From contig JAKJGF010000007.1 of NCBI GenBank assembly GCA_022704525.1, positions 1 through 42,818 of the forward strand: a stretch of DNA of 42,818 nucleotides, read 5' to 3'. This document shows positions 10,843-28,574 of the stretch, piece after piece (positions within the stretch are counted from its first letter, which is position 1; each line of letters opens with the position of its first letter). A program made the translations under genes and the position numbers. The DNA is from Bacillota bacterium (lineage in GTDB: Bacteria; Vulcanimicrobiota; SpSt-956; JAKJGF01). Below the pieces are notes generated by a model. The model saw nothing but the letters and a program-made list of their open reading frames with translations. It did not search any database and was not told the origin of the DNA.

Positions 10843-13533
10843 ATGTATAATAAAAATATTCTTATAGCAGATGATAATATAGACCTTTTAGAGGTATATG
10901 AAACCTTATTCAGTGAATTTAATAGTATTTCTAAAAACATTGAAGAAGGTTTTATTGTAAAAACCTTTGAGACCGGCATATATCTTTTGGAGTACTTCAA
11001 AGAAGAAGTACACAAGGGAAATAAAATACCTCTTGTTATACTGGATATGTTAATGCCCGGCTTAGACGGGCTGGAAACAGGTAAATTACTCAGAAAAATC
11101 GATTCTGACGTAATTATCGTTATTATTACGGCATATCCTGATAAAATATCCCTGGAGTCTATAAAAGCACAACTGAAAGAGGAAATATATTACGTACCAA
11201 AACCATTCAGGCCAAAAGAGATTTATTGCCTTGTAGATTCCCTCTTAAAAAGCTGGAATAAAAAATTTCAGATTAAGGAAAGTGAGGAAAGATATAAAGT
11301 CTTATTTGAAAATACAGGTACTGCCACATGTATATTAGAGGAAAACCACATAATATCACTTGCCAATACAAAATTCCAAAAACTCACAGGTTATACAAAA
11401 GAAGAGATAGAAGGCAAAAAAACCTGGACAGAATTTGTCGTAAAGGAAGACCTTGAGAAGATGGTATATCAGCATAAACTGAGAAGGGTCAGTCCTCATG
11501 AAGCTCTAAAAAATTATGAGTTTCGCCTCATAGATAAAGAGGGCAATATAAAGAATATATTCCTTACTGTCGATTTAATTCCAGGGACAAAAAAGAGCGT
11601 AAGTTCTCTTATGGATATTACCGAGTGGAAGCAGACAGAGGATGCCCTGAGAAAGTCTGAGGAAAAGTACAGAACTATTGTTGAGAATATCTTTGATATA
11701 GTCTATACCTATGACATTAACGGAAAAATTATGTTTATAAGCCCACGTGTTTCTTATTACGGGTACAGGCCTGAGGAAGTCATAGGCCATAGCTTTATTG
11801 AATATGTTCATCCTGATGATATAGAATATGTCCTTTCAGACTATCAAAGAACTATAGACAAAAAAGTAGATACTACAACTATATGCCGCATTATCACACC
11901 GAGAGGAATGAATTATATAGAAGAGATTTCAAGACCTGTAGTGGATAAAAACGGTAATATCGAGTACATTATAGGAGTCATACGGGATATTACAGAACGA
12001 AAAAAAACAGAAGAAGAACTTCACCGTATTGCCACTGCTATTGAACAGGCGGAAGAAACCGTTTTAATTACAGATAAAGATGGAACTATTCAGTATGTGA
12101 ATCCTGCTTTTGAAAAGATTACGGGTTATAAAAAAGATGAAGTAATGGGGAAAAAACCTTCCATACTGAAAAGTGGATCTCATTCTAATGAATTCTACAG
12201 TTCTATGTGGGAAACCCTTGAAAAAGGAAAAGTCTGGAAAGGACGTTTTATTAATAGAAAAAAAGATGGAAATCTCTATAATGAAGAAGCTACAATTTCC
12301 CCGATAATGGATAATACAGGAACTATTACAAACTATGTAGGCGTAAAAAAAGATATAACAAAAGAATTAAAACTGGAAAAACAATTGAATCATATTCAAA
12401 AAATGCAGGCTATAGGCACTCTGGCAGGAGGAATTGCCCATGACTTTAATAATATCCTTGTAGCTGTTCTGGGATATATACAGATTTCACGTTATGATAT
12501 CGGTGATACAAAAACAATTCAAAAAAATCTTGATCATATGCACAGGGCATGTGAAAGAGCTATAAACCTGGTAAAGCAACTTTTGACCTTCAGCCGCAAC
12601 ACTGAGGGAGAAAAAAAGCCTCTATATATAGGAAATATTATAAAGGAAACTCTTAAATTCTTAAGGCCCTTAATACCTGCAACTATTAAAATAAAAGAAA
12701 ATATAAAAGAAAATTCCCATATGGTAATAGCTGACCCGATTCACATCCATCAGATAATAATGAATCTATGCAATAATGCAGCTTATGCTATGAGAGAAAA
12801 ACATGGTATATTAGAAATTATTCTGGAAAAGACAATTTTTACATCTGAGGATTCATTATTATCGAAGGAAATGAAATCCGGCACTTACATAAAATTAAGT
12901 ATAAGTGATACAGGTCACGGTATGAACCAGGCAATTAAAGAACGTATCTTTGAACCGTATTTTACTACAAAAAAAATAGGAGAAGGCTGTGGCATAGGAC
13001 TTTCTGTAGTACATGGAATTGTTACAAGCTATGGTGGAGTAATTACAGTAGAAAGCAAAGAAGGAAAAGGAAGTACTTTTCATATATTCTTACCGGCCAT
13101 TGAATATAATGTAATTCCTGAAAACATAAAACCATTAACATTGCCTAAAGGGAATGAAAGGATACTATTTGTTGATGATGAAGAAGATATGGTTCTTGAG
13201 ATAGCAGAGAAAATATTAGTAAAACTCGGCTATAAAGTGGTTACTAAAACAAGCAGTATGGAAGCACTGGAATTCTTTCGTAAAGAGCCAGATAAATTTG
13301 ATCTTATAATTACCGATGAAATTATGCCGGAGATGAAAGGAAGTGAACTGGCAAAAGAATTATTAAAAATAAGACCTGATATACCTGTAATCCTTACGTC
13401 AGGCTTCATTGAATATATAGATCGGGAAAAAGTCAGAGCTATAGGAATCAGAGAATTTATAATAAAGCCCTTTGATATAAATAACTTTGCCGCAATAATA
13501 AGAAAGGTTCTGAAACAAAATGCACGGTTATGA
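10843..13533 (+). CDS. Hybrid sensor histidine kinase (REC-PAS-PAS-PAS-HisKA-HATPase-REC)
   Basis: A soluble 896-residue two-component protein. Residues 4-130 are a receiver (acidic pair D10/D11, phospho-Asp D68, Lys120). Three PAS domains follow at about 145-262, 270-388 and 393-508. The dimerisation/phosphoacceptor helix is GTLAGGIAHDFNNILVAVLG (His533). The ATPase domain has the N box NLCNNAAYAM, DTGHGM and the G2 box GCGIGLS. A second receiver covers about 770-893. There is no transmembrane segment, so signals are cytosolic, perhaps redox or small ligands bound by PAS. The ATG at 10843 has AGGAA upstream with long spacing. The gene is convergent with the pseudokinase-receiver gene at 13552. 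No DNA-binding output domain is encoded. Confidence 0.93.
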   Translation: MYNKNILIADDNIDLLEVYETLFSEFNSISKNIEEGFIVKTFETGIYLLEYFKEEVHKGNKIPLVILDMLMPGLDGLETGKLLRKIDSDVIIVIITAYPDKISLESIKAQLKEEIYYVPKPFRPKEIYCLVDSLLKSWNKKFQIKESEERYKVLFENTGTATCILEENHIISLANTKFQKLTGYTKEEIEGKKTWTEFVVKEDLEKMVYQHKLRRVSPHEALKNYEFRLIDKEGNIKNIFLTVDLIPGTKKSVSSLMDITEWKQTEDALRKSEEKYRTIVENIFDIVYTYDINGKIMFISPRVSYYGYRPEEVIGHSFIEYVHPDDIEYVLSDYQRTIDKKVDTTTICRIITPRGMNYIEEISRPVVDKNGNIEYIIGVIRDITERKKTEEELHRIATAIEQAEETVLITDKDGTIQYVNPAFEKITGYKKDEVMGKKPSILKSGSHSNEFYSSMWETLEKGKVWKGRFINRKKDGNLYNEEATISPIMDNTGTITNYVGVKKDITKELKLEKQLNHIQKMQAIGTLAGGIAHDFNNILVAVLGYIQISRYDIGDTKTIQKNLDHMHRACERAINLVKQLLTFSRNTEGEKKPLYIGNIIKETLKFLRPLIPATIKIKENIKENSHMVIADPIHIHQIIMNLCNNAAYAMREKHGILEIILEKTIFTSEDSLLSKEMKSGTYIKLSISDTGHGMNQAIKERIFEPYFTTKKIGEGCGIGLSVVHGIVTSYGGVITVESKEGKGSTFHIFLPAIEYNVIPENIKPLTLPKGNERILFVDDEEDMVLEIAEKILVKLGYKVVTKTSSMEALEFFRKEPDKFDLIITDEIMPEMKGSELAKELLKIRPDIPVILTSGFIEYIDREKVRAIGIREFIIKPFDINNFAAIIRKVLKQNARL

Positions 13534-13551
13534 ATATATACAATCACCAGC

Positions 13552-15306
13552 TTATGGATTATGATTATCTACATTTTTCTCTGCTTCCACAATATCTTCA
13601 GAGCTGAACTTTTTTGCTGTAAAGTTACTTAGATGAAGAATATTAGCAGGATCTAATTTTTGAATGGCTTTATTCAGTATCTTCTTTATCTTAGAACCTG
13701 ACTCTCCTTCTTTTGTCTGAGTATGGAGAAGGGGCACTTCGGTAGATTTTTTTTCTAAAGATCCTTCTACAATTTTTTCACTTAAACTTTTATCATAAGC
13801 AGTTTCTAATTTACCTTCTTTTAAAAACTTTATTATATTTATACCACATTCGACACAATATTTTGCTTTCTCATTATTAAGTCTCCTGCAAAGGGGACAG
13901 ATAACTTTATTTTTATCATTCTCAGTCCCAGTCTCAGGTTTCTTCGGAGAAATCTCTCTATCCTTCTTTAAAGTCAGTGCCTTCAATAAGTATGGACTTG
14001 CTTCAGGTGAAATGGGGTTCCCTCCAAAAAAAGCTTTTCTTATAATCTCTTCTAAATCATCCCAGAGAGTACAATTTTTCAGTATATAACCTGATGCACC
14101 GGATTTAAAACAGTTTAAAAATTCTTCTTCATTAAGATTGGCAGTAAGGATAATAATCCTGATAGAAGGACAGGATTTTAAAATTTTTTCTGTAGCTTCT
14201 ATACCATCCATAAGAGACATTCTAATATCCATCAATATAACATCAGGCTTTTCTTCTAACGAAAGGATTGTATTTACTGCATCTTCCCCATTATGGGCTA
14301 TTCCCATAACCTGAATGTCCTTAAAGCAGGAAGTCATATCTTTAAAACTATTGCATATATCAATATCATCATCTACAATAAAAACTTTTATATCTTTATT
14401 ATCCTGAGAATCTTTAATTTTCTCAGAGCAAGTTATGAATTTACTGATTTTATCCTTACCCTTTCTAAATTTTATTTTATGTAAATTTAAAAGAGCATCT
14501 TTCAAATGAATGGCATCTTCAAATCTATGATCTACATCTTCAGAAAGACATTTCATTAAAATACTTTCCATCTCAGATGATACAAAAGGGGCAATTTCTC
14601 GGACAGATTTAAATGGTTTATAAGGAGATAGATTAGTTAAAAGTTCATACATAATAAGTCCAAGAGAATAAATATCTTTGCTTAATTCAAAAGTAGTCCC
14701 GGTGGTATCAACTATGAGATCTTCCAACTTGACTCCAAAATCAACTAAAATCAGAGTCTTATCATAATCTCTTATTATGAATTTATCCAGTTTCAGATTA
14801 CCGGGCATAATAACAGGTTTATAATTATTTAAATATTCCAGAACCCTGCAGATCTGCATAGACCATTCAAGAACCTGTTTTTCAGGTAATCCTCTGGGGA
14901 CTGCCTCTTTTAAAATCCTTTCCAGACTCCTGCCATTTATATAATCTGTAACAATAAAAAAAAAGTCCTTTTCCATAAAATAATCTGTCAGAAAAGGGAG
15001 ATTGGGATGACGGAGATTAGAAAGGATATTTACTTTTTTTCTGAAGGTTTCTTCTATCATTTCTTTTTCAGGTAAAAGTGAAAATCCCTCTTTGTAAATT
15101 CTTCGTAAGGTACAGGGTCTATGTAAATATGTGTCATAAGAAAGTAATACACTCCATGTCTGTCCTGATGACAGATGAGAAATTACCCTGTATCTATTGT
15201 GGTAGAATTCTTCTCCCTGTTCATATGTGATTTGAAAGGGGGCTCCACAATTCTCACAGAAAAGAACATTCTCCAGATTTTCACTGGAGCATTCACTGCA
15301 ATACAC
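13552..15306 (-). CDS. Zinc ribbon-Ser/Thr pseudokinase-receiver-zinc ribbon protein
   Basis: The 584 residues carry an N-terminal double-Cys zinc ribbon (MYCSECSSEN ... FCENCG) and a Ser/Thr kinase-like domain at about 38-280. A response-regulator receiver follows at about 306-430 (DDD acidic pocket, phospho-Asp360, Lys410), then a second zinc ribbon at about 470-488. The kinase looks inactive: the ATP lysine of the AVK motif is Arg (CTLRRI), and the HRD/HGD catalytic loop reads PGNLKLDKF, so the catalytic Asp appears to be Asn. The DFG motif (VDFGVK) remains. The receiver is NarL-like but has no HTH. GTG start with GAGGGA upstream. It lies 44 bp downstream of hypB in the hydrogenase/kinase locus and parallels the 1002-aa kinase without its HEAT/TPR tail. 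It may be a regulatory partner of that kinase. Confidence 0.88.
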   Translation of the reverse strand: MYCSECSSENLENVLFCENCGAPFQITYEQGEEFYHNRYRVISHLSSGQTWSVLLSYDTYLHRPCTLRRIYKEGFSLLPEKEMIEETFRKKVNILSNLRHPNLPFLTDYFMEKDFFFIVTDYINGRSLERILKEAVPRGLPEKQVLEWSMQICRVLEYLNNYKPVIMPGNLKLDKFIIRDYDKTLILVDFGVKLEDLIVDTTGTTFELSKDIYSLGLIMYELLTNLSPYKPFKSVREIAPFVSSEMESILMKCLSEDVDHRFEDAIHLKDALLNLHKIKFRKGKDKISKFITCSEKIKDSQDNKDIKVFIVDDDIDICNSFKDMTSCFKDIQVMGIAHNGEDAVNTILSLEEKPDVILMDIRMSLMDGIEATEKILKSCPSIRIIILTANLNEEEFLNCFKSGASGYILKNCTLWDDLEEIIRKAFFGGNPISPEASPYLLKALTLKKDREISPKKPETGTENDKNKVICPLCRRLNNEKAKYCVECGINIIKFLKEGKLETAYDKSLSEKIVEGSLEKKSTEVPLLHTQTKEGESGSKIKKILNKAIQKLDPANILHLSNFTAKKFSSEDIVEAEKNVDNHNP

Positions 15307-15350
15307 TTTTCATCCCTCACCGAAAATTGTAGAACTATTCAGTTATAACT

Positions 15351-16007
15351 TTATAACTTATTACAAAAATTATCCACACCGGTTCTGATCCATTTTATCC
15401 ACTCATCAAAGCCTTCTCCCGTTTTACTGGAGAGAGGAAATATTCTGGCCTGTGGATTCAGTTTTAAGAAATTCTCATTAATTTTTTCAAGAGAGTAATC
15501 TAAATAGGGAAGTAAATCAATTTTATTTATAATCAAAGAAGTGGCAACACGAAAAATGCCGGGGTATTTTAAAATCTTATCATCCCCTTCAGTAGTGCTG
15601 TTCATAACTAAACTTATATTTTCTCCAAGTTTATAACCTGCAGGACAGATGAGATTTCCAACATTCTCTATGAAAATCAGGTCAGTCTTATGAAGAGGCA
15701 AATTTTCAAGGGCTTTTTGTATCATAGGGGCATTTAAGTGGCAACTTCCTCCGGTATTAATCTGTACAACCGGTATACCAAGTTTCTTTATTCTAACAGC
15801 ATCTACATCAGAAGCAACATCTCCTTCTATTACAGATATTGCCAGATCAAGTCTTTTTATGGTTTCTTCTATAAAAGTAGTTTTCCCTGCCCCGGGAGAC
15901 GAGAGAAGATTTACCATATATATTCTATGGTCATCCAATAATTTACGATTTTGCTCTGCTATGAGATTATTAGCACTTAAAATATCAGTCAACACAGGTA
16001 TATTCAT
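15351..16007 (-). CDS. hypB: Hydrogenase nickel incorporation GTPase HypB
   Basis: A SIMIBI-class GTPase that helps deliver Ni to the [NiFe]-hydrogenase large subunit. The 218 residues show the P-loop LSSPGAGKTTF, the EGDVASDVDAVRI segment, the conserved metal-site Cys-His in GGSCHLNAPM, IENVGNLICPAGY, and the guanine-specificity NKID. There is no His-rich or CxxCGC N-terminal nickel store, so this is a short HypB. Its ATG overlaps the hypA stop (ATGA), meaning coupled translation. The hypCDEF genes are not in the window and must lie elsewhere. Confidence 0.95.
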   Translation of the reverse strand: MNIPVLTDILSANNLIAEQNRKLLDDHRIYMVNLLSSPGAGKTTFIEETIKRLDLAISVIEGDVASDVDAVRIKKLGIPVVQINTGGSCHLNAPMIQKALENLPLHKTDLIFIENVGNLICPAGYKLGENISLVMNSTTEGDDKILKYPGIFRVATSLIINKIDLLPYLDYSLEKINENFLKLNPQARIFPLSSKTGEGFDEWIKWIRTGVDNFCNKL

Positions 16008-16348
16008 AGATCCACCTCAATATCTTCCAATAAAATTTCCTGGCCCGATAATAATTTAACATTTGGACTATAACATAAAGGACATAACATCATGAAATCC
16101 TTCACATTTGAAGTTATTCCACAGGATTTACATTCAATTTGAATATCTACTTTTTCAAATACCAGTAAGGCCCCTTCAGCTATTGTATCTTTACTGAATT
16201 GTTCAAAATAAAATTTAAAACATTCCGGATCTAACATAGTGAGGGCACCTATCTTTAATTTTAAAGAGAGAATTTTTTTTGCTTTATAACGTTCTCCCTG
16301 TTTAATTGCTATAGCAAGCATGTCATGTGTGAGAGATAATTCATGCAT
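16004..16348 (-). CDS. hypA: Hydrogenase nickel metallochaperone HypA
   Basis: A 114-residue nickel chaperone that works with HypB during [NiFe] centre assembly. It begins MHELSLTHDM, giving the invariant N-terminal His2 nickel ligand, and has the structural zinc site CKSCGI ... CPLCYSPN. The start at 16348 is fixed by an AAAGGAG site and by the MHE motif; a longer in-frame extension upstream to 16441 runs through a heptamer repeat and is not coding. It forms an operon with hypB. Confidence 0.95.
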   Translation of the reverse strand: MHELSLTHDMLAIAIKQGERYKAKKILSLKLKIGALTMLDPECFKFYFEQFSKDTIAEGALLVFEKVDIQIECKSCGITSNVKDFMMLCPLCYSPNVKLLSGQEILLEDIEVDL

Positions 16349-16366
16349 AGTATATACTCCTTTTAA

Positions 16367-16460
16367 GGTGAAACGTGAAACGTGAAACAATAATGTAATA
16401 GCGCTTAAGATACATTTACACTTCTTTTCACTTCTGCTCACTGCTCACTTCTTTTCACCC
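16367..16460. repeat. Paired heptamer arrays upstream of hypA
   Basis: The left arm is GGTGAAA, CGTGAAA, CGTGAAA (16367-16387). The right arm is a CTTTTCAC/CTGCTCA/CTGCTCA/CTTTTCAC-type array (16419-16460). The right arm runs into the 3' end of the maturation protease gene and supplies its last bases. Confidence 0.7.
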
Positions 16461-16919
16461 TTCATCTAATTCTTTCAAAACCAGTTCCACCATAGAGGAA
16501 ATGGCTTTTTCCACTTCACTGGAAAGCTCCATAGAAAATCTATTTTCTACTTTTTCTATTTCCATTCCGAGTAATATAATCTTACGGGATATATTATCAG
16601 GATACAGCATTGAACCTATTTTCACAACCTCTGCAATTCCTAACTGATGCATAGAAATAAGACTATCCCTGCTCATATTCTTAAGTTCTTCTACTTCAAA
16701 TCTATAACAATCCCCTTTATTGCCACCAAAGGTAACTGCATCTACTACTATTACTTTATCTATATCCATAAAATAATCCAGTAAATCTAAACCCCTCACT
16801 TCTCCCTCCACTAGATCCACATCAGATGAAACAAATTCCCTTAATTCCTGAATAACACGAAGGCCAAGACCATCATCGCCGGCTATTAAATTACCACATC
16901 CAATAATTCTACTCTTCAG
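16455..16919 (-). CDS. Hydrogenase maturation protease (HycI/HyaD family), non-AUG start
   Basis: An endopeptidase that removes the C-terminal extension of the [NiFe] hydrogenase large subunit after nickel insertion. The nickel-sensing ligands are all present: IGCGNLIAGDDGLGLR (first Asp), VVDAVTFGG (second Asp) and SMHQLGIAE (His). An internal GTG at 16820 would yield 121 residues and lose the first Asp, so the gene must start earlier. The in-frame region back to the kinase stop (TAG, 16926-16928) offers only CTG (16919) or ATT (16922). GGAG in the last codons of the kinase gene sits 9 or 6 nt upstream. With CTG the product is 154 residues, typical for the family. It directly follows, in the same frame, a Ser/Thr kinase gene, and its substrate is encoded about 12 kb upstream in the same locus. 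Confidence 0.88.
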   Translation of the reverse strand: MKSRIIGCGNLIAGDDGLGLRVIQELREFVSSDVDLVEGEVRGLDLLDYFMDIDKVIVVDAVTFGGNKGDCYRFEVEELKNMSRDSLISMHQLGIAEVVKIGSMLYPDNISRKIILLGMEIEKVENRFSMELSSEVEKAISSMVELVLKELDEG

Positions 16920-16925
16920 AATATT

Positions 16926-19900
16926 CTACTCCAGTTCTTTTATATATTTTTCAGCATCAGTAGCATATTCACCCTGGTGAGACACCTTTAGATACTTTTT
17001 CAAATGAAGAAGAGCTTTAAATATCTTTTGCTGTTCTTTATAAACCAGTCCTATATGAAAATGTACTTTTATATCTGAAGGATCTATTCTTAAAATATTC
17101 AGATAGCTTGAAAGAGAAGTATCAAAATCGCCTGATTTATAGCAGGCTTCACCAAGTTTCCATAGTAATAGTAAATCATCAGGTTTCTCTTTAAGTTTCT
17201 CTTTAAGTTCCTGAATAGAATATATTTTATCTTCTTCTTCAATTACTTCTTCCTCAATTACTTCTTCTTCCACTTCTTCTTCTTCCTCAATTACTTCTTC
17301 TTCAATTACTTCTTCTTCCAATTCCTCTTCTTCCTCAATTACTTCTTCTTCCACTTCTTCTTCTTCAATTACTTCTTCTTCCACTTCTTCTTCAATTTTC
17401 TCTTCTTCCGGAAGTTTCTTTAACTTACTAGTATTATATTTTACCTTCACACGTCCTGCCTTTATATCATTCCACTCTTCAATAAGAGTCTCTATATATT
17501 TTCTGGCTTCAAAGACCAGCCCGGTATCAGTTGTAACAGCAAGACACTCATTTAAATGTAAAAGAGCTTCATTAATTCTGTATTCATTTTTTAACTCAGG
17601 ATTATGATTGAATTGCCGTAAAATAACCCTGGCTATATTTAAATGTGCTTTCCCATAGTTAGGATCTACCTCCAGAGCTTTGTTAAAGTTCTCAAGAGCA
17701 AGGGCATCATTATTTTCTTTATAATATTTTTCACCTTCCTCATTGTAAACATCGGATACAGGAATAATCTCAGTCTTAAGTGGCGTAAATACTCTGGTAA
17801 TACAACTCATCTCCACTTCATCAGCATCACCGGTAAGAGTTGGAATCTTATCTTTCTCACCTTTTATTTTTTGAATGGATTTATCTATTACCATCTTCAT
17901 ATTAATACTGAAGGGACTTTCTTTACGTCTGGCTTCCTTCAATGGCTCAACAGCTCTTTCATCACCAAAATCTCCTAAGGATATAACAGCCTGTTTTCTA
18001 ATCTGATGATTTTCATCTTTAAGGGCCTCCAGGAGATAAGAAAATCCTTCTTTATATTTAACATTACCAAGAGTATTTAAAACAGCTATCCTCACAGAAA
18101 GATCATTATCTGTTAATCTATCAACCAGAGGTTTAAAGGCCCGGGCATCTCTCTGTTTTTCCAGTATTGAGATTACCTCCTTACGAATAAGAGGTTCAGA
18201 ATCCTTCAACATATCAATAAGAGGCAATACAAGTCTTTTATCCTGAATATTACTCAGACTCTTAAGTATATCTAATCTATCTTCCTGTCTGGCAACTTTC
18301 AGTTGTCTGATAGATATTTCAATTTTATCCATAGACTTTACCTGGGGTTCTTCTGGCAGCTTAATTACTACTTTTTTATCTCTTCCTGCAACACTCAGAG
18401 TTGTTCCACATGCTTCGCAAAACTTCGCTGAAGGTCTATTTATTCTATTACAGGCAGGACAGAATTTTTTCTCCTCTTTTACCTCTTTTTTCACTCCCTC
18501 CCTATATTCTATTACAGGTACAGGAGACGATTTCTTTTGAAAAGACCAAGCTCTCACAAGCAAATGACTTGCATCAGCTGAAATGGGAATACCTCCTGCA
18601 AAAGCCTTTTTAATAGATTTTTCCAGTTCCCCCCAGTAAGTATCACTTTTAAGGATATAACCTGACACACCGGCCTCAAAACATGCAAAAAATTCTTCTT
18701 CTTTAAGATAAGCCGTTACTACTACAATTTTAGTTACAGGAGAAATCTTCAAAATCTCTTTTGTAGTTTCTATACCGTCTATACCGGGCATTCTCAGATC
18801 CATTAATATTACATCTGGCTTTTTGTCTCCTTCTACAACTTTCTTTATAGCTTCCTCACCATTATTGGCAAATCCCATAACATGAATACCTTTGAAAAAT
18901 TTTGCCATATCATTGAAGGCATCACAGATCTGAGTTTCATCATCTACAACAAGAACATTTATATCACCTGCTGTGGCTTCACTTACTAATGGTTTTATAA
19001 AGCTTCTTGTCTTATATTCATTTTCATCTATTGCGAAATTTTTCTGATAAATTTCCAGTAGATTTTGCTTTAAAACTTTAGCATTGCTAAATCTATCTTT
19101 CATCTCATATTCCAGGCATTTCATAACCAGATATTCTGTATCAGGAGAAATTTCCGGAGTAATGTCCCTGAGAGGACTGAATTCAAAGAGTTCTTCAGGA
19201 AGTATTCCTGTGAGAAGTTCATAGAGGGTGGCACCAAAAGCATATATATCACTTCTTATGTCCAGTATTCCTTCATATTGTTCAGGGGGAGCATAGCCAT
19301 CTGTTCCATAAGACGGGCCATCTCCGCCTTCAAGATCTGCAAGAAAAGCTGTGCCAAAATCCACAAGCATTATACATCCGTCAAATTCTCTTACTATAAG
19401 ATTCGCCGGTTTTACATCTCCATGTATAACAGGAGGTTTTTGACTGTGTAAATATTCAATTACTCTGGAGACCTGAATTGCCCATTCAATCACCTGTTTT
19501 TCCGGTAATCCTTTACCCTCATTTTCATCAAGAATTACTTCTAGATCTTTACCTTCAATATAATCCATTACAAGATAACAGTAATCTCCCTCTATAAAAT
19601 AATCTGTCATACAGGGAAGATTTGTATGTCTCAGAGTAGCAAGCAATTCAGCTTCTCTTTTAAAAGGTTTTACTACATCATCTCTCTCTTTATCAGATAA
19701 AGCTGAAAGACCCTTTTTATGAATACCTTTCACAGCACATAATTTATTCAGACTCATATCATAGGTAAGAGAAATTCCTCCAACCCCGCCGGTAGATAAA
19801 AGAGAAAGTATCTTATATCTCTCCTTAAGGAGATTTTTCTCTTCCTGTTTATCGGAGGCTTTAAAAAAGCATCCACACTTCTTACAAAAAAGTGCTCCCT

Positions 19901-19934
19901 TCGGATTTTCAGTATAACATTCCATACAATACAT
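16926..19934 (-). CDS. Zinc ribbon-Ser/Thr kinase-receiver-HEAT-TPR signalling protein
   Basis: A 1002-residue multidomain protein. Residues 1-20 are a zinc ribbon (MYCMECYTEN ... FCKKCG). The kinase spans about 40-295 with ATP Lys69 (CAVKGI), catalytic loop IHGDVKPANL (Asp173), DFG Asp192 and APPEQ, all consistent with activity. A receiver follows at about 326-450 (DDE, phospho-Asp379, TAYL, Lys430), then a second zinc ribbon (FCPACN ... FCEACG) near 491-509, HEAT repeats at about 540-670 and a TPR block at about 740-835. An acidic Glu/Val/Ile tract (about 850-905) and a C-terminal TPR module complete it. Fusing a Hanks-type kinase to a two-component receiver suggests cross-talk between Asp and Ser/Thr phosphorylation. 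ATG at 19934 has GGTGA 7 nt upstream; GTG at 19943 is possible. The maturation protease follows immediately. Confidence 0.92.
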   Translation of the reverse strand: MYCMECYTENPKGALFCKKCGCFFKASDKQEEKNLLKERYKILSLLSTGGVGGISLTYDMSLNKLCAVKGIHKKGLSALSDKERDDVVKPFKREAELLATLRHTNLPCMTDYFIEGDYCYLVMDYIEGKDLEVILDENEGKGLPEKQVIEWAIQVSRVIEYLHSQKPPVIHGDVKPANLIVREFDGCIMLVDFGTAFLADLEGGDGPSYGTDGYAPPEQYEGILDIRSDIYAFGATLYELLTGILPEELFEFSPLRDITPEISPDTEYLVMKCLEYEMKDRFSNAKVLKQNLLEIYQKNFAIDENEYKTRSFIKPLVSEATAGDINVLVVDDETQICDAFNDMAKFFKGIHVMGFANNGEEAIKKVVEGDKKPDVILMDLRMPGIDGIETTKEILKISPVTKIVVVTAYLKEEEFFACFEAGVSGYILKSDTYWGELEKSIKKAFAGGIPISADASHLLVRAWSFQKKSSPVPVIEYREGVKKEVKEEKKFCPACNRINRPSAKFCEACGTTLSVAGRDKKVVIKLPEEPQVKSMDKIEISIRQLKVARQEDRLDILKSLSNIQDKRLVLPLIDMLKDSEPLIRKEVISILEKQRDARAFKPLVDRLTDNDLSVRIAVLNTLGNVKYKEGFSYLLEALKDENHQIRKQAVISLGDFGDERAVEPLKEARRKESPFSINMKMVIDKSIQKIKGEKDKIPTLTGDADEVEMSCITRVFTPLKTEIIPVSDVYNEEGEKYYKENNDALALENFNKALEVDPNYGKAHLNIARVILRQFNHNPELKNEYRINEALLHLNECLAVTTDTGLVFEARKYIETLIEEWNDIKAGRVKVKYNTSKLKKLPEEEKIEEEVEEEVIEEEEVEEEVIEEEEELEEEVIEEEVIEEEEEVEEEVIEEEVIEEEDKIYSIQELKEKLKEKPDDLLLLWKLGEACYKSGDFDTSLSSYLNILRIDPSDIKVHFHIGLVYKEQQKIFKALLHLKKYLKVSHQGEYATDAEKYIKELE
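17236..17405. repeat. Acidic low-complexity coding repeat (E/V/I tract)
   Basis: Imperfect units such as TTCTTCTTCAATTAC and TTCTTCTTCCACTTC encode alternating EEEVIEE and EEEVEE runs between two TPR blocks of the kinase-receiver protein. Length changes here would stay in frame if whole units change. Confidence 0.75.
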
Positions 19935-19967
19935 AATATTCACCAGCCTGGTCTAACGAAATCAAAT

Positions 19968-22613
19968 CTAAATTATCCTCATAACACATCTAAACCCTTT
20001 AGAATGATCACTATTATCAGGTAAAAGACGATAACGAGTAGTTGTTCTCAAATAATTGGGATAATTTGTAAAAGAACCTCCCCTGAGTATTTTTTCAAGA
20101 CCCTCCTCAGGCCCCCGGGGATTCTTTTCAGGAGAATCCTCATAATATCCTGCTGAATACCAGTCATTACACCACTCCCAGACATTTCCTGACATATCTA
20201 TTACTCCAAAGAAGCTGGCCCCATGAGGATATTTATCTACAGGTGTAGTTGTATTAATATTACTAAAACGATTATTACATTTATTAACATCCCATTTCTC
20301 ACCCCATGGCCATACTCTTCCATCATTACCTCTGGCAGCTTTTTCCCACTCTGCTTCTGTAGGAAGGACTTTCCCTGCCCATTCAGCATAGGCTCTGGCA
20401 TCTTCCCATATCACATTTACAACAGGATGATTATCTTTTTCACTGTTATAATACTTCATAAAATCTCCCTGGGACTTATAACCTGTGGATTCAACAAACC
20501 TGAGATACTGAGCGTAAGTAACAGGAGTTTTATCAATATAATAATCATCTAAATATATAATATGATCAGGTAGCTCTATTTCAAACCAGCTTAACCTGGC
20601 TCCCTTATAATATTCTCTGGCTTCCTGAAGGGCATAATAAATTTCTTTTTCAGAACTACCCATAATAAATTCTCCTGCCGGTATTAAAATCATCTCAGCT
20701 TTATCAATGGGATGAACAAAAATAGAAGGCCTTGTTAATAACTCGCTCTTTATTCTCGTTAGTTCTTCTTCATTTTTCCTTCGAGATTCTTCCAGTTTTT
20801 TCCTGTTCTCTTCATCTAATAACTTTTTCTCTTCCTGATGCTTTTTCTCTCTTTCTTCCAGTCTTTTTATCTCTTCTTCTATATCAAATAAAACTTCTTC
20901 TTCCTTCTCTTCTACTTTTGTCTCCTTCTGAAATTTCTTTTTTTCTTCCAGTTTCTTCAGTTCTTCATCTAATTTTTTTCTCTCTTCTTCTCTTTTCTTT
21001 GCTTCTTCCTCTTCCTTTTTCTTTATCTCCTCTTCCAGTTTTTTTCTCTCTTCTATTTCTTTTATTTCTTCATCCAATCTTTTTCTCTCTTCTTCTCTTT
21101 TCTTTGCTTCTTCCTCTTCCTTTTTCTTTACCTCCTCTTCCAGTTTCTTTCTCTCTTCTATTTCCCTTATTTCTTCATCCAGTCTTCTTCTTTCTTCTTC
21201 TCTTTTCTTTACTTCTTCCTCTTCCTTTTTCTTTACATCCTCTTCCAGTTTCTTTCTCTCTTCTATTTCCCTTATTTCTTCATCCAGTCTTCTTCTTTCT
21301 TCTTCTCTTCTCTTTTCCAGAACCTCTTCTGTTAACTTCACTGGTTCCTCTTCAAGCTTTATTTCCTCACCCAGTCTTTTTCTCTCTTCTTCTCTCTTCT
21401 CTTCTTCTTCTAATCTCTTTCTATCTTCAATTTCCCTTATTTCTTCATCCAGTCTTTTTCTCTCTTCTTCTCTTCTCTGTTTTTCTTCTAAGAATCTTCT
21501 TTCTTCTTCTATTCTCTCATCTTCTTCAGTTCTCTTTCTTTCTTCTATCTCTCTTATTTCTTCATCCAATCTTTTTCTTTCTTCTTCTCTTCTATGCTCT
21601 TCCTCATCAAGTCTTCTTCTTTCTTCTTCCCTATTTTCTTCTTCTTCCAGTCTCTTTTTATCTTCCAACCTCTTTATTTCTTCATCCAGTTTTCTTCTCT
21701 CTTCTTTTCTCTTCTTCTTTTCTTCTTCTAATAACTTTGTTTCTTCTTCTCTTTTCTGTTCTTCTTCTAATTTCTTTCTCTCTTCTATTTCCCTTATTTC
21801 TTCATCCAGTCTTCTTCTCTCTTCTTCTCTCTTTTTTTGTTCTTCTTCTAATTTCTTTCTCTCTTCTATTCTCTTTATTTCTTCATCCAATCTTCTTCTT
21901 TCTTCTTCTCTTCTTTTCTGGGTCTCATCCAATCTTCTTCTTTCTTCTTCTCTTCTTTTCTGGATCTCATCCAATCTTCTTCTTTCTTCTTCTCTTCTCT
22001 TATCTCTTTCTAATCTCTTTTCCTCTTCATCCCTCTTCTGCTCCTCTTCTAATCTTGCTTTCTCTTTTTCTATTTTCTCTTTTTCTTCTGCCAGTTTCTT
22101 TCTTTCTTCTATAAGACTTTTTCTTTCTTCTTCTAAACTCTTCTCCGGTTCTCTTTCTACAATCTTCTTCTGTTCCTCATAAATCTTTTTCTTTTCTTCT
22201 TCTAATTTCTTTCTATCTTCTGCTAATTTCTTTGCTTCTTCTTCCAGTCTCTTTTTTACTTCCTCAAGTAACTTTTTGCCTTCTTCTAACTTCTTTTTAT
22301 CATCCTCCAGTACTTCCCTGTCTGTTTCTAATTCCAATTTTTTCTTTGTATCAAGTTCCAGTATTTTTTTCTCCTCTTCCTCTGCTTCTTTCTTTTTTTC
22401 TTTTTCAGCAATTTTAACCTGATCCCATAATAATATTATTACACCTATTATAAGTAATATTAAAATAAACATAATTACATAAATATCTGATAAAGGTGTA
22501 GATGTAGAAGCAGATACAGGAGGTGAAGAACTTTCCTGTGTAAACCCCGAACCTACATATGTTATAAAGATTAATAAAATAATAGATAATTTAACCAGAT
22601 TTGATATTTTCAT
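19968..22613 (-). CDS. Membrane-anchored giant coiled-coil protein with C-terminal FGE-like (SUMF1) domain
   Basis: The 881 residues begin with a signal-like hydrophobic segment (1-25) and a Ser/Pro/Thr-rich stretch. A transmembrane helix follows at about 47-64 (IMFILILLIIGVIILLW). About 560 residues of Glu/Lys/Arg-rich repeat come next, built on units like REEERRRLDEEIREIEERKK. The C-terminus (637-881) is a formylglycine-generating-enzyme-type domain with GEFIMGSS, TPVTYAQYLRFV, LPTEAEWEKAARG and GNVWEWCNDW. The catalytic Cys pair of true FGE is missing: the region reads RGGSFTNYPNYLR. It is therefore probably a binding or scaffold module. If helical throughout, the rod could be about 80 nm long. 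Predicted topology puts rod and FGE-like domain in the cytoplasm, beside the kinases whose genes flank it (33 and 88 bp away). Confidence 0.88.
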   Translation of the reverse strand: MKISNLVKLSIILLIFITYVGSGFTQESSSPPVSASTSTPLSDIYVIMFILILLIIGVIILLWDQVKIAEKEKKKEAEEEEKKILELDTKKKLELETDREVLEDDKKKLEEGKKLLEEVKKRLEEEAKKLAEDRKKLEEEKKKIYEEQKKIVEREPEKSLEEERKSLIEERKKLAEEKEKIEKEKARLEEEQKRDEEEKRLERDKRREEERRRLDEIQKRREEERRRLDETQKRREEERRRLDEEIKRIEERKKLEEEQKKREEERRRLDEEIREIEERKKLEEEQKREEETKLLEEEKKKRKEERRKLDEEIKRLEDKKRLEEEENREEERRRLDEEEHRREEERKRLDEEIREIEERKRTEEDERIEEERRFLEEKQRREEERKRLDEEIREIEDRKRLEEEEKREEERKRLGEEIKLEEEPVKLTEEVLEKRREEERRRLDEEIREIEERKKLEEDVKKKEEEEVKKREEERRRLDEEIREIEERKKLEEEVKKKEEEEAKKREEERKRLDEEIKEIEERKKLEEEIKKKEEEEAKKREEERKKLDEELKKLEEKKKFQKETKVEEKEEEVLFDIEEEIKRLEEREKKHQEEKKLLDEENRKKLEESRRKNEEELTRIKSELLTRPSIFVHPIDKAEMILIPAGEFIMGSSEKEIYYALQEAREYYKGARLSWFEIELPDHIIYLDDYYIDKTPVTYAQYLRFVESTGYKSQGDFMKYYNSEKDNHPVVNVIWEDARAYAEWAGKVLPTEAEWEKAARGNDGRVWPWGEKWDVNKCNNRFSNINTTTPVDKYPHGASFFGVIDMSGNVWEWCNDWYSAGYYEDSPEKNPRGPEEGLEKILRGGSFTNYPNYLRTTTRYRLLPDNSDHSKGFRCVMRII

Positions 22614-22701: not shown

Positions 22702-25700
22702 TTATTCAAGTTCTTCTATATAATGTCTGGCTTCAGTTAAATACTCTCCCTGAGGGTCCAGACTCATATATTTCTTAAAATGAATCAAAGCTTTTAACAC
22801 TTTCTTCTGTTCTCTATAAATGAGACCAATATTAAAATGTGTCCTGGCTTTCATCGGCTCTATCTCTAAAACTTTCAAATAACAATCACAAGACAGCTTA
22901 TGTGATCCTGAGCTATAGTAAGCTTCTCCAAGTCTATTAAGAAGATCTACATCATCAGGCTTCTCTTTCAATTCTTTCGTCAATTTCTCTATAAGATTTT
23001 TTCCCTCCTTTCCTTTTATATCTGTTTCTTTCTTAGCTATATCATCAGGACTCATACCTTCTATTTCGGAAATATACATTTCAACTTTTGTTTTTAAATC
23101 TTCATCTTTAGTCAGCTTAATACATCTTCTGAAATGTTTCAGAGCATTAAAGACATTCCCTACATTTCTATAAACCTGACCAATTTCCAAATGAGCTATA
23201 AAATCTTTAGAATTTATTTTAAGGTAATACTTATAATGAGAGATAGATTTATCAAATTTTTCAAATTCTCCATACAGTCTTGCAACCTGTAAACGAACAT
23301 CCTGATTATCAGGTTCATCCTTAAGTTTTATTTCATATTCCTTTAACTCTTCTTCTTTGCTTTTTTCTAATATTTTGACTTCTTCTATTTTCACTTCTTT
23401 CTTTTCTTCTACCAATTCCGGTACTTTTTCTTTTACACCTGCTAATTCCTCAGAAGATAACATTTCAATCTGATTTATATAATTCTTTGCTTCATCCAGA
23501 AGTTCTGAATTATCAGCTTTTCTGGCACATATCCTGAGATAATCTAAAGCCTCATTAAATTTACCCTGTTCTTTATAAAGAAGAGCAACTTCTAAACAAA
23601 GCTTTGCATCAGATGGTTTGATAGATAAACACTTTATGTAATGTTCTATAGCTCTTTCCATATCTCCTGATTCCTTATATAAGACAGCTATATTTATATT
23701 AGCCTCCAGATCATCAGGTGATTTTTCCAGAGAAGACTTCAATTCCCTCAGAAGGGGACTCTCATCTATCACTTTAGCTTCTTCCAGCTTAATTTCCTTT
23801 GTTTCAAAAGGAGTTTCCATTACACTGGCTCCAAGATCTTCTATTTCTTTTATATATTCTCTTGCTTTTTTAATTAAAGAATCATCCTTAGAAGTCTTTA
23901 CACATAATTTAAAATGTCGTAAAGTTTTTAAAACATTTTTCTTGTCTTTATATAGTAAGCCTAAATTCATATGAGCTTCAGCAAAATTGGGATCCAATTT
24001 CAATGCTTTCTCATAATGCTCTTTTGCTTTATTTGGTTTTTTCTTTTCATAATACAAAAGACCGAGTCTGGTATAAATAAGAGGATCATCAGGTGAAGTT
24101 TTCAATAATTCCTGATAATATTCTATAGTTTGAGGCTCTTCTTTCTCAGGAATCTCTTCAGCTTTAACTGGTTCTATCACTTTTTCTGCTTCTTTCTCTT
24201 TAAGTATTTTCAGATCAGAGGAAACTTCTTCTCCCTTTTCTGCATCTTCAATACTCCTTATCTGTTTCTCTAATAATTCTATATTATTTCTGGCTTTAGT
24301 GATTATCTCTTCATTCTGTGAACATTTTTCAGAAACTTTAAAATGCTCCAGAGCATCTTTTAATTTATTAATTTCCTTCAGAGAAGTACCAAGTTCTTTA
24401 TATAAAAGGGCTATATTAAAATGTGCTTCTCCATAAGATGAATTTAACTCCAGGGCTTTCCTGTAATGACTATCAGCTAAAAATACATTCCCATACTCAA
24501 AATAAGCCCGGCCCAGTTCATTATAGATCAGTGGGTCAGAAGGTGAGGATTTTAATCTGTCCTTATAATAAGTTATTCTTTCTTCCAGTACTTCCGGAAC
24601 CTCAGTCGCTTTTATTTCTTCCTGGATCTTCTCTTCTTCCATCTTATTTATTAAAGGCAGTTCTTCCATCTTAATATCCTGAATTTTAGCAGTAATTTCT
24701 TCTGTTTCTTCAGGAGTTTCAATACTTTTTATCTTTAGATCTATCTCCTCTATATACTTTCTGCCTTTATCAATTATCTCTTCATTCTGGGCAAATTTCA
24801 CAGACAATTCAAAATGTTCCCGGGCACCTTTTAATTTATTACTGTCATTCATAGAACTTCCAACTTCTTTATATAACATGGCCAGGTTAAAATGAGCTTC
24901 TGCATAATTCGGAGCAAGAGAAAGGGCTTTCTTATAAAGAGTATCAGCCAGAAACATATTTCCATAATCAACATAAGCAAGGCCAAGTTCATTATGAACT
25001 ACCGGGTCATGAGGAGTTCCTTTCAACATATCCTGATAATATTTTATCCTGTCTTCAGCAGAGCTGGGAACTTCTATATCTTCTACTTCTTCTTCTACTT
25101 CTTCTTCTACTTTTTCTTCTACTTTTTCTTCTACTTCTTCTTCTACTTTTTCTTCTACTTTTTCTTCTACTTCTTCTTCTACTTTTTCTTCTACTTTTTC
25201 TTCTACTTTTTCTTCTACTTTTTCTTCTACTTTTTCTTCTACTTTTTCTTCTACTTCTTCTTCTACTTCTTCTTCTACTTCTTCTTCTACTTCTTCTTCT
25301 ACTTCTTCTTCTACTTCTTCTACTGTTTCTTTCTTTTCTTTTAGTAATTTTTCCTCTTCTGCAGATTTTTCTTCCTCTTTTTCAATCTCAGCCCATACAT
25401 CATTAAGAATTTTTATATAATTTTGGGCTTCTGATGCCAGACTGGCACTGGAAGCAAGTTCAATACATTTATTCAGATGCATGAGGGCTTGATTAACTCT
25501 ATACTTATTTCTGGTCTCAGGCTTATATTCAAATTCAAGCAAAATAAGTCTGGCTAAATTAAAATGGGCCTCCACATATGTGGGATTTATCTCTAAAGCC
25601 TTACTAAAAGATTCCATAGCCAGTTCATATTTATTTTCTTTGAGGTATGCTTCTCCCCTTTCATTACAACTCCTGGCTTCATGAAACTTTACAGTTACCT

Positions 25701-27174
25701 CTGGTAAAAGTTCATTGGTAGAATAAATATCTTCTTTTTTGACTTCTACAGTGCTGGTCTTTAAAGATTCAAGTCTCTGTATGGCCTTATCTATAGTCAT
25801 TTTCATGCTAAAACTTAAAAGTCCTTCTTTCTGGCGGGCTTCCTTCATAGGAATAAGAGCTTGCTCATCACCAATCTCTCCAAGTGATATAGCAGCATGT
25901 CTTCTGATACGATAATCTTCATCTTTAAGAGCTTCTATAAGATGAGGAACAGTCTTAATAAATTTAGGATTTCCAAAAGCCGTTAAAACGGCAAGCCTTA
26001 CACCCAGATCTTTATCTTTTAACAACTTTATAAGTGGTTCCATAGCACGTATATCTTTCAATTTGCCCAGTATAGTGGCGGCTTCCCTGCGAATATTGGG
26101 ATGGGAGTCATTCAGCATCTCAATAACGGGTAATACAATTTTCTCGTCATCAACCTTACTTAATTTACTAATAGCTTCAAATCTTGCCTTCGGATTGGAA
26201 GCTTTAAGCTGAATAATAGATAAATCTATTTCACTGAGGGTATGAGAAGTAACAGATGAAACCCTATCAGTTAAAAGATCTATTAAAGCCTGTTTCATCT
26301 CTTCTGCAGAAGCAAATCTATTTTTAGGTTTAAGTTCAAGGGCCTTTCTAATTATTTCTTCCATAGGGTCAGAGATCTCTGGAACCCTCTTCTTTACCGA
26401 TTCATAGGTGAATGGTATGGGCATTATACCTGTAAGAAGGTGAGACATAGTGGCACCTAAAGAATAGATATCACTGGAAGGTTCAGCCATTCCTCTGAAC
26501 TGTTCCGGTGAAATATAGCCCATAGTTCCTATGGCAGTTCTGGGATTTGTATCATCCTGTAAGGCTTTGGCTATTCCGAAATCTATTAGTATTACTTTTT
26601 CATCTGAGGAACGGATCATAATATTAGAAGGTTTAAGATCACGATATAATATACGGGGATCTCTCGTATGCAAATAAGCCAGAACATCGCATATCTCTAT
26701 AGCCCAACTACTTACCTGTTTTTCAGGTAACCCGGGATTACCTCTTTGTTTAAGGATGGCAAGAAGGTCTGTCCCTTCAACAAAATCCATAGTAAGATAA
26801 TAGCGATCACCTATTGTAAAATAATCATATACCCTGGGAAGGCTTATATGATGTAAATTAGCAAGGGTTTTTGCTTCACTCTGAAACTTATCAATAGCGT
26901 ACTGTCTTTCTCGCTCCGTACTGTGAGGGAAACTTATAAGTTCCTTTATAGCACAGATCTTTCCAAGGTTTTTATCTTCTGCACAATAAACGGCCCCCAT
27001 TCCACCTGCTTTAATAAGTTTTATAATTTGATACCTGTTAACAAGCAAAGTCCCTGCTTCCATACCATTACTGAATTGTCTTGCCAATTCATTTCCCAAT
27101 AAATTGCCGCATTCAGCACAAAACTTTGCTGTATCACTATTCAGGGCATTACACTTAGAACATAACTGAGGCAT
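22702..27174 (-). CDS. Zinc ribbon-Ser/Thr kinase-HEAT-TPR giant signalling protein
   Basis: A 1490-residue soluble protein. An N-terminal zinc ribbon (LCSKCNALN ... FCAECG) is followed by an intact Hanks-type kinase at about 45-300: glycine loop AGGMGAVY, Lys77 in CAIKEL, YRDLKPSN with Asp179, DFG Asp198 and GTMGYISPEQF. HEAT repeats occupy about 320-465 and a TPR block about 500-610. A Glu/Val/Lys tract (about 620-700) then leads to six TPR modules of 100-140 residues running to the C-terminus, most ending in a YIxEIE-like cap. HEAT, first TPR and last TPR module are closely similar to the 1002-aa kinase, but this protein has no receiver. AGGAGGT lies 10 nt before the ATG. It stands between the roadblock gene and the FGE-like gene, so it probably nucleates a signalling complex through its repeats. 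Confidence 0.93.
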   Translation of the reverse strand: MPQLCSKCNALNSDTAKFCAECGNLLGNELARQFSNGMEAGTLLVNRYQIIKLIKAGGMGAVYCAEDKNLGKICAIKELISFPHSTERERQYAIDKFQSEAKTLANLHHISLPRVYDYFTIGDRYYLTMDFVEGTDLLAILKQRGNPGLPEKQVSSWAIEICDVLAYLHTRDPRILYRDLKPSNIMIRSSDEKVILIDFGIAKALQDDTNPRTAIGTMGYISPEQFRGMAEPSSDIYSLGATMSHLLTGIMPIPFTYESVKKRVPEISDPMEEIIRKALELKPKNRFASAEEMKQALIDLLTDRVSSVTSHTLSEIDLSIIQLKASNPKARFEAISKLSKVDDEKIVLPVIEMLNDSHPNIRREAATILGKLKDIRAMEPLIKLLKDKDLGVRLAVLTAFGNPKFIKTVPHLIEALKDEDYRIRRHAAISLGEIGDEQALIPMKEARQKEGLLSFSMKMTIDKAIQRLESLKTSTVEVKKEDIYSTNELLPEVTVKFHEARSCNERGEAYLKENKYELAMESFSKALEINPTYVEAHFNLARLILLEFEYKPETRNKYRVNQALMHLNKCIELASSASLASEAQNYIKILNDVWAEIEKEEEKSAEEEKLLKEKKETVEEVEEEVEEEVEEEVEEEVEEEVEEKVEEKVEEKVEEKVEEKVEEKVEEEVEEKVEEKVEEEVEEKVEEKVEEEVEEEVEDIEVPSSAEDRIKYYQDMLKGTPHDPVVHNELGLAYVDYGNMFLADTLYKKALSLAPNYAEAHFNLAMLYKEVGSSMNDSNKLKGAREHFELSVKFAQNEEIIDKGRKYIEEIDLKIKSIETPEETEEITAKIQDIKMEELPLINKMEEEKIQEEIKATEVPEVLEERITYYKDRLKSSPSDPLIYNELGRAYFEYGNVFLADSHYRKALELNSSYGEAHFNIALLYKELGTSLKEINKLKDALEHFKVSEKCSQNEEIITKARNNIELLEKQIRSIEDAEKGEEVSSDLKILKEKEAEKVIEPVKAEEIPEKEEPQTIEYYQELLKTSPDDPLIYTRLGLLYYEKKKPNKAKEHYEKALKLDPNFAEAHMNLGLLYKDKKNVLKTLRHFKLCVKTSKDDSLIKKAREYIKEIEDLGASVMETPFETKEIKLEEAKVIDESPLLRELKSSLEKSPDDLEANINIAVLYKESGDMERAIEHYIKCLSIKPSDAKLCLEVALLYKEQGKFNEALDYLRICARKADNSELLDEAKNYINQIEMLSSEELAGVKEKVPELVEEKKEVKIEEVKILEKSKEEELKEYEIKLKDEPDNQDVRLQVARLYGEFEKFDKSISHYKYYLKINSKDFIAHLEIGQVYRNVGNVFNALKHFRRCIKLTKDEDLKTKVEMYISEIEGMSPDDIAKKETDIKGKEGKNLIEKLTKELKEKPDDVDLLNRLGEAYYSSGSHKLSCDCYLKVLEIEPMKARTHFNIGLIYREQKKVLKALIHFKKYMSLDPQGEYLTEARHYIEELE
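25079..25324. repeat. 12-bp tandem repeat array inside the 1490-aa kinase gene
   Basis: About twenty units of TTCTTCTACTTC or TTCTTCTACTTT encode VEEE/VEEK tetrapeptides on the minus strand. Units are near-identical at DNA level, so the array should change length readily by slippage while preserving the frame, altering the linker between HEAT/TPR and the later TPR modules. Confidence 0.85.
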
Positions 27175-28301: not shown

Positions 28302-28574
28302 TTAAATAAGTCTGCTGGCAATCTTCATACCCTCTGAATCACAATAAAAATTCTTACTGTAAGAAACTCCCTGAAGGTCAATACAGGTGGGAGGGCATAT
28401 ATAATAACAGGACAGACAGCCTATACAGTTATCTTCTTTAGTTACAGAAGCAGTATTCCTGGCCTTATCAAAGGTAAATACCTCTACAGGACATACATCA
28501 ACACATAACTGACATCCTCGACAGGCTTTATCATCAAGTAAAATCTTGATCTTCTGGTCAGTTCCCTTCATCAT
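28302..28574 (-). CDS. Two-[4Fe-4S] ferredoxin-like electron-transfer protein
   Basis: The 90 residues have two classical cluster motifs, CRGCQLCVDVCP and CIGCLSCYYICP, each expected to bind one [4Fe-4S] cluster. A C-terminal tail of about 25 residues contains one more Cys. The ATG overlaps the large-subunit stop (ATGA), so it is translated with the hydrogenase and probably acts as its electron-transfer subunit or acceptor. No flavin- or NAD-binding subunit, HdrA or MvhD is present in the window, so the final electron partner is unknown. Confidence 0.93.
   Translation of the reverse strand: MMKGTDQKIKILLDDKACRGCQLCVDVCPVEVFTFDKARNTASVTKEDNCIGCLSCYYICPPTCIDLQGVSYSKNFYCDSEGMKIASRLI

Follow-up and report, generated by a model that had tools for sequence, protein, structure and literature searches.

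We found, in a single bacterial genome, a family of 11 proteins that join a Hanks-type Ser/Thr kinase to a two-component receiver, and in one member, W584, the kinase has lost constraint whereas the receiver has not. W584 and a second member, W1005, are encoded in the window, by which we mean the whole stretch of 42,818 nucleotides analysed here. The apparently dead kinase and the well-preserved receiver of W584 suggest that histidine kinase signals may switch both Ser/Thr kinase and pseudokinase proteins.

The two window proteins and their neighbours

W584 is a 584-aa protein, and its ORF is a real gene. W1005 has 1005 aa when read from a GTG and 1002 aa when read from the ATG at 19934, which is the likely start; its residue numbers given here refer to the 1005-aa (GTG) version. 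In both proteins, Pfam matches and CxxC pairs gave the order zinc ribbon, Hanks kinase, receiver, zinc ribbon, as the initial annotation had read it, with two CxxC-CxxC ribbons per protein, one N-terminal and one past the receiver. The chain of W1005 goes on beyond its second ribbon, with HEAT repeats, TPR repeats and a stretch rich in Glu that are absent from that annotation. The features are listed by position.

10843..13533, plus strand: hybrid histidine kinase, receiver-PAS-HisKA-HATPase-receiver (ORF, Pfam); convergent with W584, 18 bp apart
13552..15306, minus strand: W584, predicted pseudokinase-receiver protein (ORF, Pfam, AlphaFold2 mean pLDDT 81.6)
13843..13899, minus strand: W584 C-terminal zinc ribbon, CPLC...CVEC (CxxC pairs)
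13975..14394, minus strand: W584 receiver (Response_reg 5.3e-20)
14485..15195, minus strand: W584 predicted pseudokinase domain (alignment, motif table; Pkinase 5e-16)
15235..15300, minus strand: W584 N-terminal zinc ribbon, CSEC...CENC (Zn_Ribbon_1 6.9e-7, CxxC pairs)
15351..16820, minus strand: hydrogenase maturation cassette between W1005 and W584 (NCBIfam)
15351-16007, minus strand: HypB (TIGR00073)
16004-16441, minus strand: HypA (TIGR00100)
16455-16820, minus strand: hydrogenase protease (TIGR00072)
16926..19943, minus strand: W1005, kinase-receiver-HEAT-TPR protein (ORF, Pfam)
16944..17771, minus strand: W1005 TPR repeats around the Glu-rich stretch, bounds approximate (TPR_2, TPR_11)
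17874..18191, minus strand: W1005 HEAT repeats, bounds approximate (HEAT_2 1.8e-21)
18405..18461, minus strand: W1005 second zinc ribbon (Zn_Ribbon_1 2.6e-7, aa 494-516)
18546..18965, minus strand: W1005 receiver (Response_reg 6.8e-22)
19053..19820, minus strand: W1005 Hanks kinase domain with every catalytic motif (Pkinase 9.8e-34)
19872..19928, minus strand: W1005 N-terminal zinc ribbon (CxxC pairs)
19968..22613, minus strand: K/E-rich (coiled-coil-like) FGE-sulfatase (SUMF1-like) protein, directly upstream of W1005 (PF03781 4e-56)
22702..27174, minus strand: 1490-aa Hanks kinase with HEAT and TPR repeats (Pfam)
28571-30022, minus strand: NiFe hydrogenase large subunit (PF00374 2e-26)
29983-30921, minus strand: NiFe hydrogenase small subunit (PF01058 2e-31)

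Pfam searches of W584 and W1005 gave no match to HisKA or HATPase_c, so the two are not hybrid histidine kinases, and none to a PP2C/SpoIIE phosphatase domain, so they are not receiver-PP2C proteins. There was likewise no Pfam match to a DNA-binding domain in either protein.

On the minus strand, from 30921 down to 13552, the genes run in the order hydrogenase small subunit, large subunit, a 181-aa unknown protein, the kinase with HEAT and TPR repeats, the FGE-sulfatase protein, W1005, protease, HypA, HypB and W584. The hydrogenase genes thus share a strand with W584 and W1005, and the gaps are short. The frame of the protease (16455-16925, minus strand) reaches back to just behind the W1005 stop codon, and this extension contains no ATG, GTG or TTG. 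FGE-sulfatase proteins adjoin kinase-receiver genes at two loci, namely in the window (19968-22613, minus strand) and at L031:9196-10998 (minus strand).

Extent and origin of the kinase-receiver family

The genome comprises 5.04 Mb in 407 contigs and is 90.9% complete. Profile searches gave 147 kinase, 87 receiver and 57 HATPase matches, and intersecting the kinase and receiver matches yielded 11 kinase-receiver proteins, the window pair included. Nine of these are intact, one (C111) is cut by a contig end, and one (C311) is interrupted by a frameshift. In four fusions (C312, C39, C192 and C111), DUF4388 follows the receiver; such kinase-receiver-DUF4388 proteins are those of L034, L035, L037 and L039 (the last cut at a contig end), and the domain is of unknown function in Pfam.

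We then used FastTree to place 172 kinase domains, of which 132 came from this genome and 40 from others, with C111 left out. The fused kinases formed one clade of 11 tips, consisting of the nine intact fusions, the kinase half of C311, and a receiver-less kinase-HEAT protein (C256), so that the family is essentially of single-clade origin. W1005, C15 and C171 grouped to the exclusion of the W584 kinase, with moderate support (77-85), and W584 and W1005 are therefore not a sister pair. The initial annotation had read them as an active/inactive pair, but a dedicated pair is not supported: besides the branching order, pseudokinases are common in the genome, where the motif census found the catalytic Asp missing in 18 of about 136 scored kinase domains. 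This count also rules out treating a pseudokinase as a rarity here. In the alignment of nine fused kinases, the catalytic Asp is missing from W584 alone.

Several other features of the kinase complement were observed. A second window kinase (31636-32694, minus strand) has Gly in place of the catalytic Asp, with the Lys, alpha-C Glu, DFG and APE present. Two kinase domains per chain occur at L243, L247, L212 and L253, several of them without the catalytic Asp. An N-terminal CxxC-CxxC zinc ribbon was found in 46 of 125 kinase ORFs, with about 0.4 expected in shuffles. The 147 Hanks kinase matches in 5.04 Mb correspond to about 29 per Mb. The genome of Sorangium cellulosum is much larger than 5.04 Mb. 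In that species, 317 kinases have been reported (PMC2887360).

Searching for the architecture, as the initial annotation had suggested, we found the fusion 11 times in this genome and in none of the 148 other genomes of the phylum. Using a joint kinase-receiver profile against all 149 phylum genomes, we obtained matches spanning both domains in this genome only, and those listed from the other genomes ended near position 255-291. When the receiver alone was searched for in these 149 genomes, the matches listed from other genomes lay mostly in frames of 210-365 aa, and the two longest of the frames listed (490 and 979 aa) had no kinase match. The long-frame receiver matches in G034, G036 and G026 were rejected as fusions; they had no kinase match, and their ends resembled a LuxR-like HTH by eye. 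In samples of three other phyla (300, 400 and 395 genomes), the matches listed were kinase-only; with no more than the best 4-5 candidates scored in each genome, these searches do not prove the fusion absent. A Balneolales match over both domains (L071) proved to be separate adjoining genes. Viral contigs gave only three weak receiver matches, and none of the best 60 PDB chains spanned both kinase and receiver. We met no receiver-Hanks kinase fusion in the available portions of the literature surveyed. In a cyanobacterial survey, RsbU is the output class based on Ser/Thr phosphorylation, and two cyanobacteria are listed with histidine kinases that carry kinase domains (PMC9953108). The parts are individually known, and the data searched did not reveal another expanded receiver-Hanks kinase family in which a pseudokinase has kept its receiver.

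Two known kinases share features with W584 and W1005. PknG of mycobacteria and other actinobacteria combines an N-terminal Cys-metal domain, which down-regulates catalysis, with a Hanks kinase and C-terminal TPR (PMC8546545). However, PknG is described without a receiver, and its rubredoxin-like domain (PF16919) had no Pfam match in W584 or W1005, which carry Zn_Ribbon_1/DZR instead. SpkB of Synechocystis, likewise of the Hanks type, has a Cys motif at its N terminus and is inactivated by oxidation; no receiver is mentioned for it in the source (PMC12189002).

Catalytic loss and receiver conservation in W584

By alignment, the W1005 kinase has K72, the alpha-C Glu (E97), the catalytic Asp (D176), the DFG Asp (D195) and the APE Glu (E221). 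On these motifs (Lys, alpha-C Glu, HxD, DFG and APE) it is predicted to be an active Hanks kinase; the Lys, HGD and DFG had already been recognized in the initial annotation, as had the Arg and Asn substitutions of W584. In W584, R68 replaces the Lys and PGN170 replaces HGD, and the degradation goes deeper than had been described: K91 replaces the alpha-C Glu, the Gly loop is degraded (GQTW), and the activation segment and APE are missing through an in-frame deletion. The DFG is retained (D189). A frameshift concealing the activation segment was ruled out, given that the missing motif occurs in no other frame. We therefore classify W584 as a predicted pseudokinase, which has lost several catalytic residues and, according to its model, retained the kinase fold. 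In this it is similar to EssB/YukC and other bacterial pseudokinases, which show degraded catalytic motifs and Gly loop, a shortened activation loop and a structural role (PMC12599244). However, EssB is a membrane component of type VII secretion, and the terms ‘receiver’ and ‘response regulator’ are absent from the text of that review.

The receivers of W584 (acidic pair D312/D313, phospho-Asp D360, T388 and K410) and W1005 (acidic pair D334/D335, phospho-Asp D382, T410 and K432) both have the complete response-regulator residue set of acidic pair, phospho-Asp, Thr/Ser and Lys. The motif table and Pfam thus agree with the earlier reading of receivers that keep the phospho-Asp and Lys and lack a DNA-binding output. 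In the C15 paralogue, one residue of the acidic pair is lost.

We also examined an AlphaFold2 model of W584, built from 43 sequences. Most blocks of the kinase domain had a pLDDT of about 90, falling to 60-71 within residues 191-210 and to 73 within 71-80, the receiver was mostly at 93-98, and Foldseek returned PknB-type kinases as the top matches. Given that the pTM of 0.55 does not fix the relative orientation of the domains, the model demonstrates no receiver-kinase interface.

Next, we compared evolutionary rates, using the paralogues C312, C39, C333 and C192 as the reference in a test that rests on nine paralogues. The W584 kinase was farther from the reference than its sisters, with an excess distance of +0.39 (bootstrap 95% CI 0.22 to 0.59). 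The W584 receiver was nearer to the reference than its sisters, at -0.20 (95% CI -0.42 to -0.01), an interval that almost reaches zero. The kinase branch of W584 was 1.09, about three times the 0.23-0.41 of its sisters, and its receiver branch of 0.27 was the shortest among the fused receivers. With a fast kinase and a slow receiver, we argue that receiver function has therefore been retained on the dead kinase.

The long kinase branch, the several catalytic losses and the deletion of the activation segment could also indicate that W584 is a decaying duplicate heading for loss, in which case the pair would be functionally meaningless. However, the frame is open over 584 codons with both zinc ribbons intact, the fold is confidently modelled, the receiver evolves more slowly than those of active sisters, and domains without the catalytic Asp are otherwise common in the genome. 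Decay is thus highly improbable, and the unequal rates together with the modelled kinase fold and the well-modelled receiver lead us to regard W584 as a probably repurposed kinase.

Direction of signalling and the process served

We propose that these proteins are lineage-specific response regulators whose output would be a Hanks-type Ser/Thr kinase. Histidine kinases, such as the zinc-ribbon GAF kinase of the C15 locus, would phosphorylate the receiver Asp, and the phosphorylated receiver would alter how active the attached kinase is or how it docks with partners. The zinc ribbons and the HEAT/TPR repeats may select partners or sense the metal or redox state. W1005 would be the catalytic version, and W584 would have lost catalysis and kept the switch, with its receiver toggling a dead kinase fold that may take part in the same pathway, be it as scaffold, activator or competitor. 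We give an even chance to this scheme, the likeliest of those considered, in which the receiver is the input, the kinase is the output, and W584 is a receiver-switched dead kinase of the same circuit.

A precedent for receiver-gated Ser/Thr chemistry, which we count in favour of a receiver-gated kinase, comes from receiver-PP2C proteins (the RsbU class and Pseudomonas PA3346), where a receiver is joined to an output of Ser/Thr phospho-chemistry (PMC12189002 and PMC9953108). According to the former, the receiver-phosphatase PA3346 is stimulated once the histidine kinase PA2824 phosphorylates it. In contrast to these proteins, W584 and W1005 have a Hanks kinase or pseudokinase as their output in place of a phosphatase, and carry the receiver on its C-terminal side.

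Which histidine kinase would act on these receivers was also considered. The initial annotation gave the hybrid histidine kinase at 10843-13533 as an example, but its role as the natural partner is not supported: this gene is on the opposite strand and convergent with W584, which rules out an operonic relationship, it has two receivers of its own, and the adjacency statistics are weak. A histidine kinase was present within 7 kb on the same strand for two of 10 fusions and for seven of 137 other kinases (p=0.12); on any strand, the counts were 4/10 and 14/137 (p=0.02, post hoc). Proximity across all fusions is thus suggestive only, and most fusion loci have no nearby histidine kinase. A better lead is the paralogous locus on contig C15. 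Three genes lie there in tandem on one strand with short gaps, and they encode a kinase-receiver protein, a kinase-FGE protein with a zinc ribbon, and a GAF histidine kinase with two zinc ribbons. This arrangement supports the general idea, already put forward in the annotation, that His-Asp signals may feed into a Ser/Thr kinase. At C311, the fusion is followed on its own strand, at a distance of about 90 bp, by a gene for a receiver-histidine kinase.

The opposite direction was also considered, namely that the kinase is upstream and phosphorylates Ser/Thr of its own or sister receivers, tuning their response to histidine kinases. Response regulators are known targets of free-standing Hanks kinases, among them those of VraTSR, WalRK, GraSR, RitR and others (PMC12189002), and StkP-ComE is a further precedent (PMC6010298). 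The fused receivers also match NarL/FixJ-type response regulators best (VraR and NarL in the PDB, and the NarL model), and among solved receivers VraR is the closest of these matches by sequence. However, NarL/FixJ-type proteins have an HTH output that W584 and W1005 do not, so that there is no DNA-binding output to tune, and the receivers are joined to kinase, repeats or DUF4388 only. The StkP-ComE type likewise places a Ser/Thr kinase and a receiver in one circuit, but as separate proteins, with information flowing opposite to the direction proposed here. In addition, W584 should not phosphorylate its own receiver, yet that receiver is well kept. We consider an upstream kinase unlikely.

Similarly doubtful is a mainly scaffolding role for receiver and kinase. 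The receiver would then offer a surface for docking or dimerisation without signalling by phosphate, and the zinc ribbons and TPR/HEAT repeats would bring several proteins together in a complex. The many repeat domains fit such a role, as does the kinase-receiver linker of W584 (residues 283-300), which is of low confidence and disordered in the model. However, each of the nine fused receivers in the alignment has the phospho-Asp and the Lys without variation, and a pure dock would need neither.

If the receiver-input scheme is correct, then it introduces the question of the process that it serves. Given that the protease-HypA-HypB cassette is bracketed by W584 and W1005, all on one strand, the likeliest candidate is hydrogenase maturation or redox state. 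No hydrogenase gene was found among the scanned neighbours of the other fusion loci, and this link may therefore be particular to the window locus. In its fullest form, the proposal would describe a new class of two-component output, with Hanks kinase effectors expanded in one lineage, a receiver-driven pseudokinase, and wiring to NiFe hydrogenase maturation; we put this forward tentatively, as improbable in its entirety.

The usual link between His-Asp and Ser/Thr phosphorylation runs through separate proteins, and in it response regulators are acted on by Ser/Thr kinases. A one-chain family in which active and dead kinases both carry receivers would make the reverse direction, i.e. histidine kinases controlling Ser/Thr kinases, directly testable, and W584 may represent a case of a receiver outliving the catalysis of the domain that it controls.
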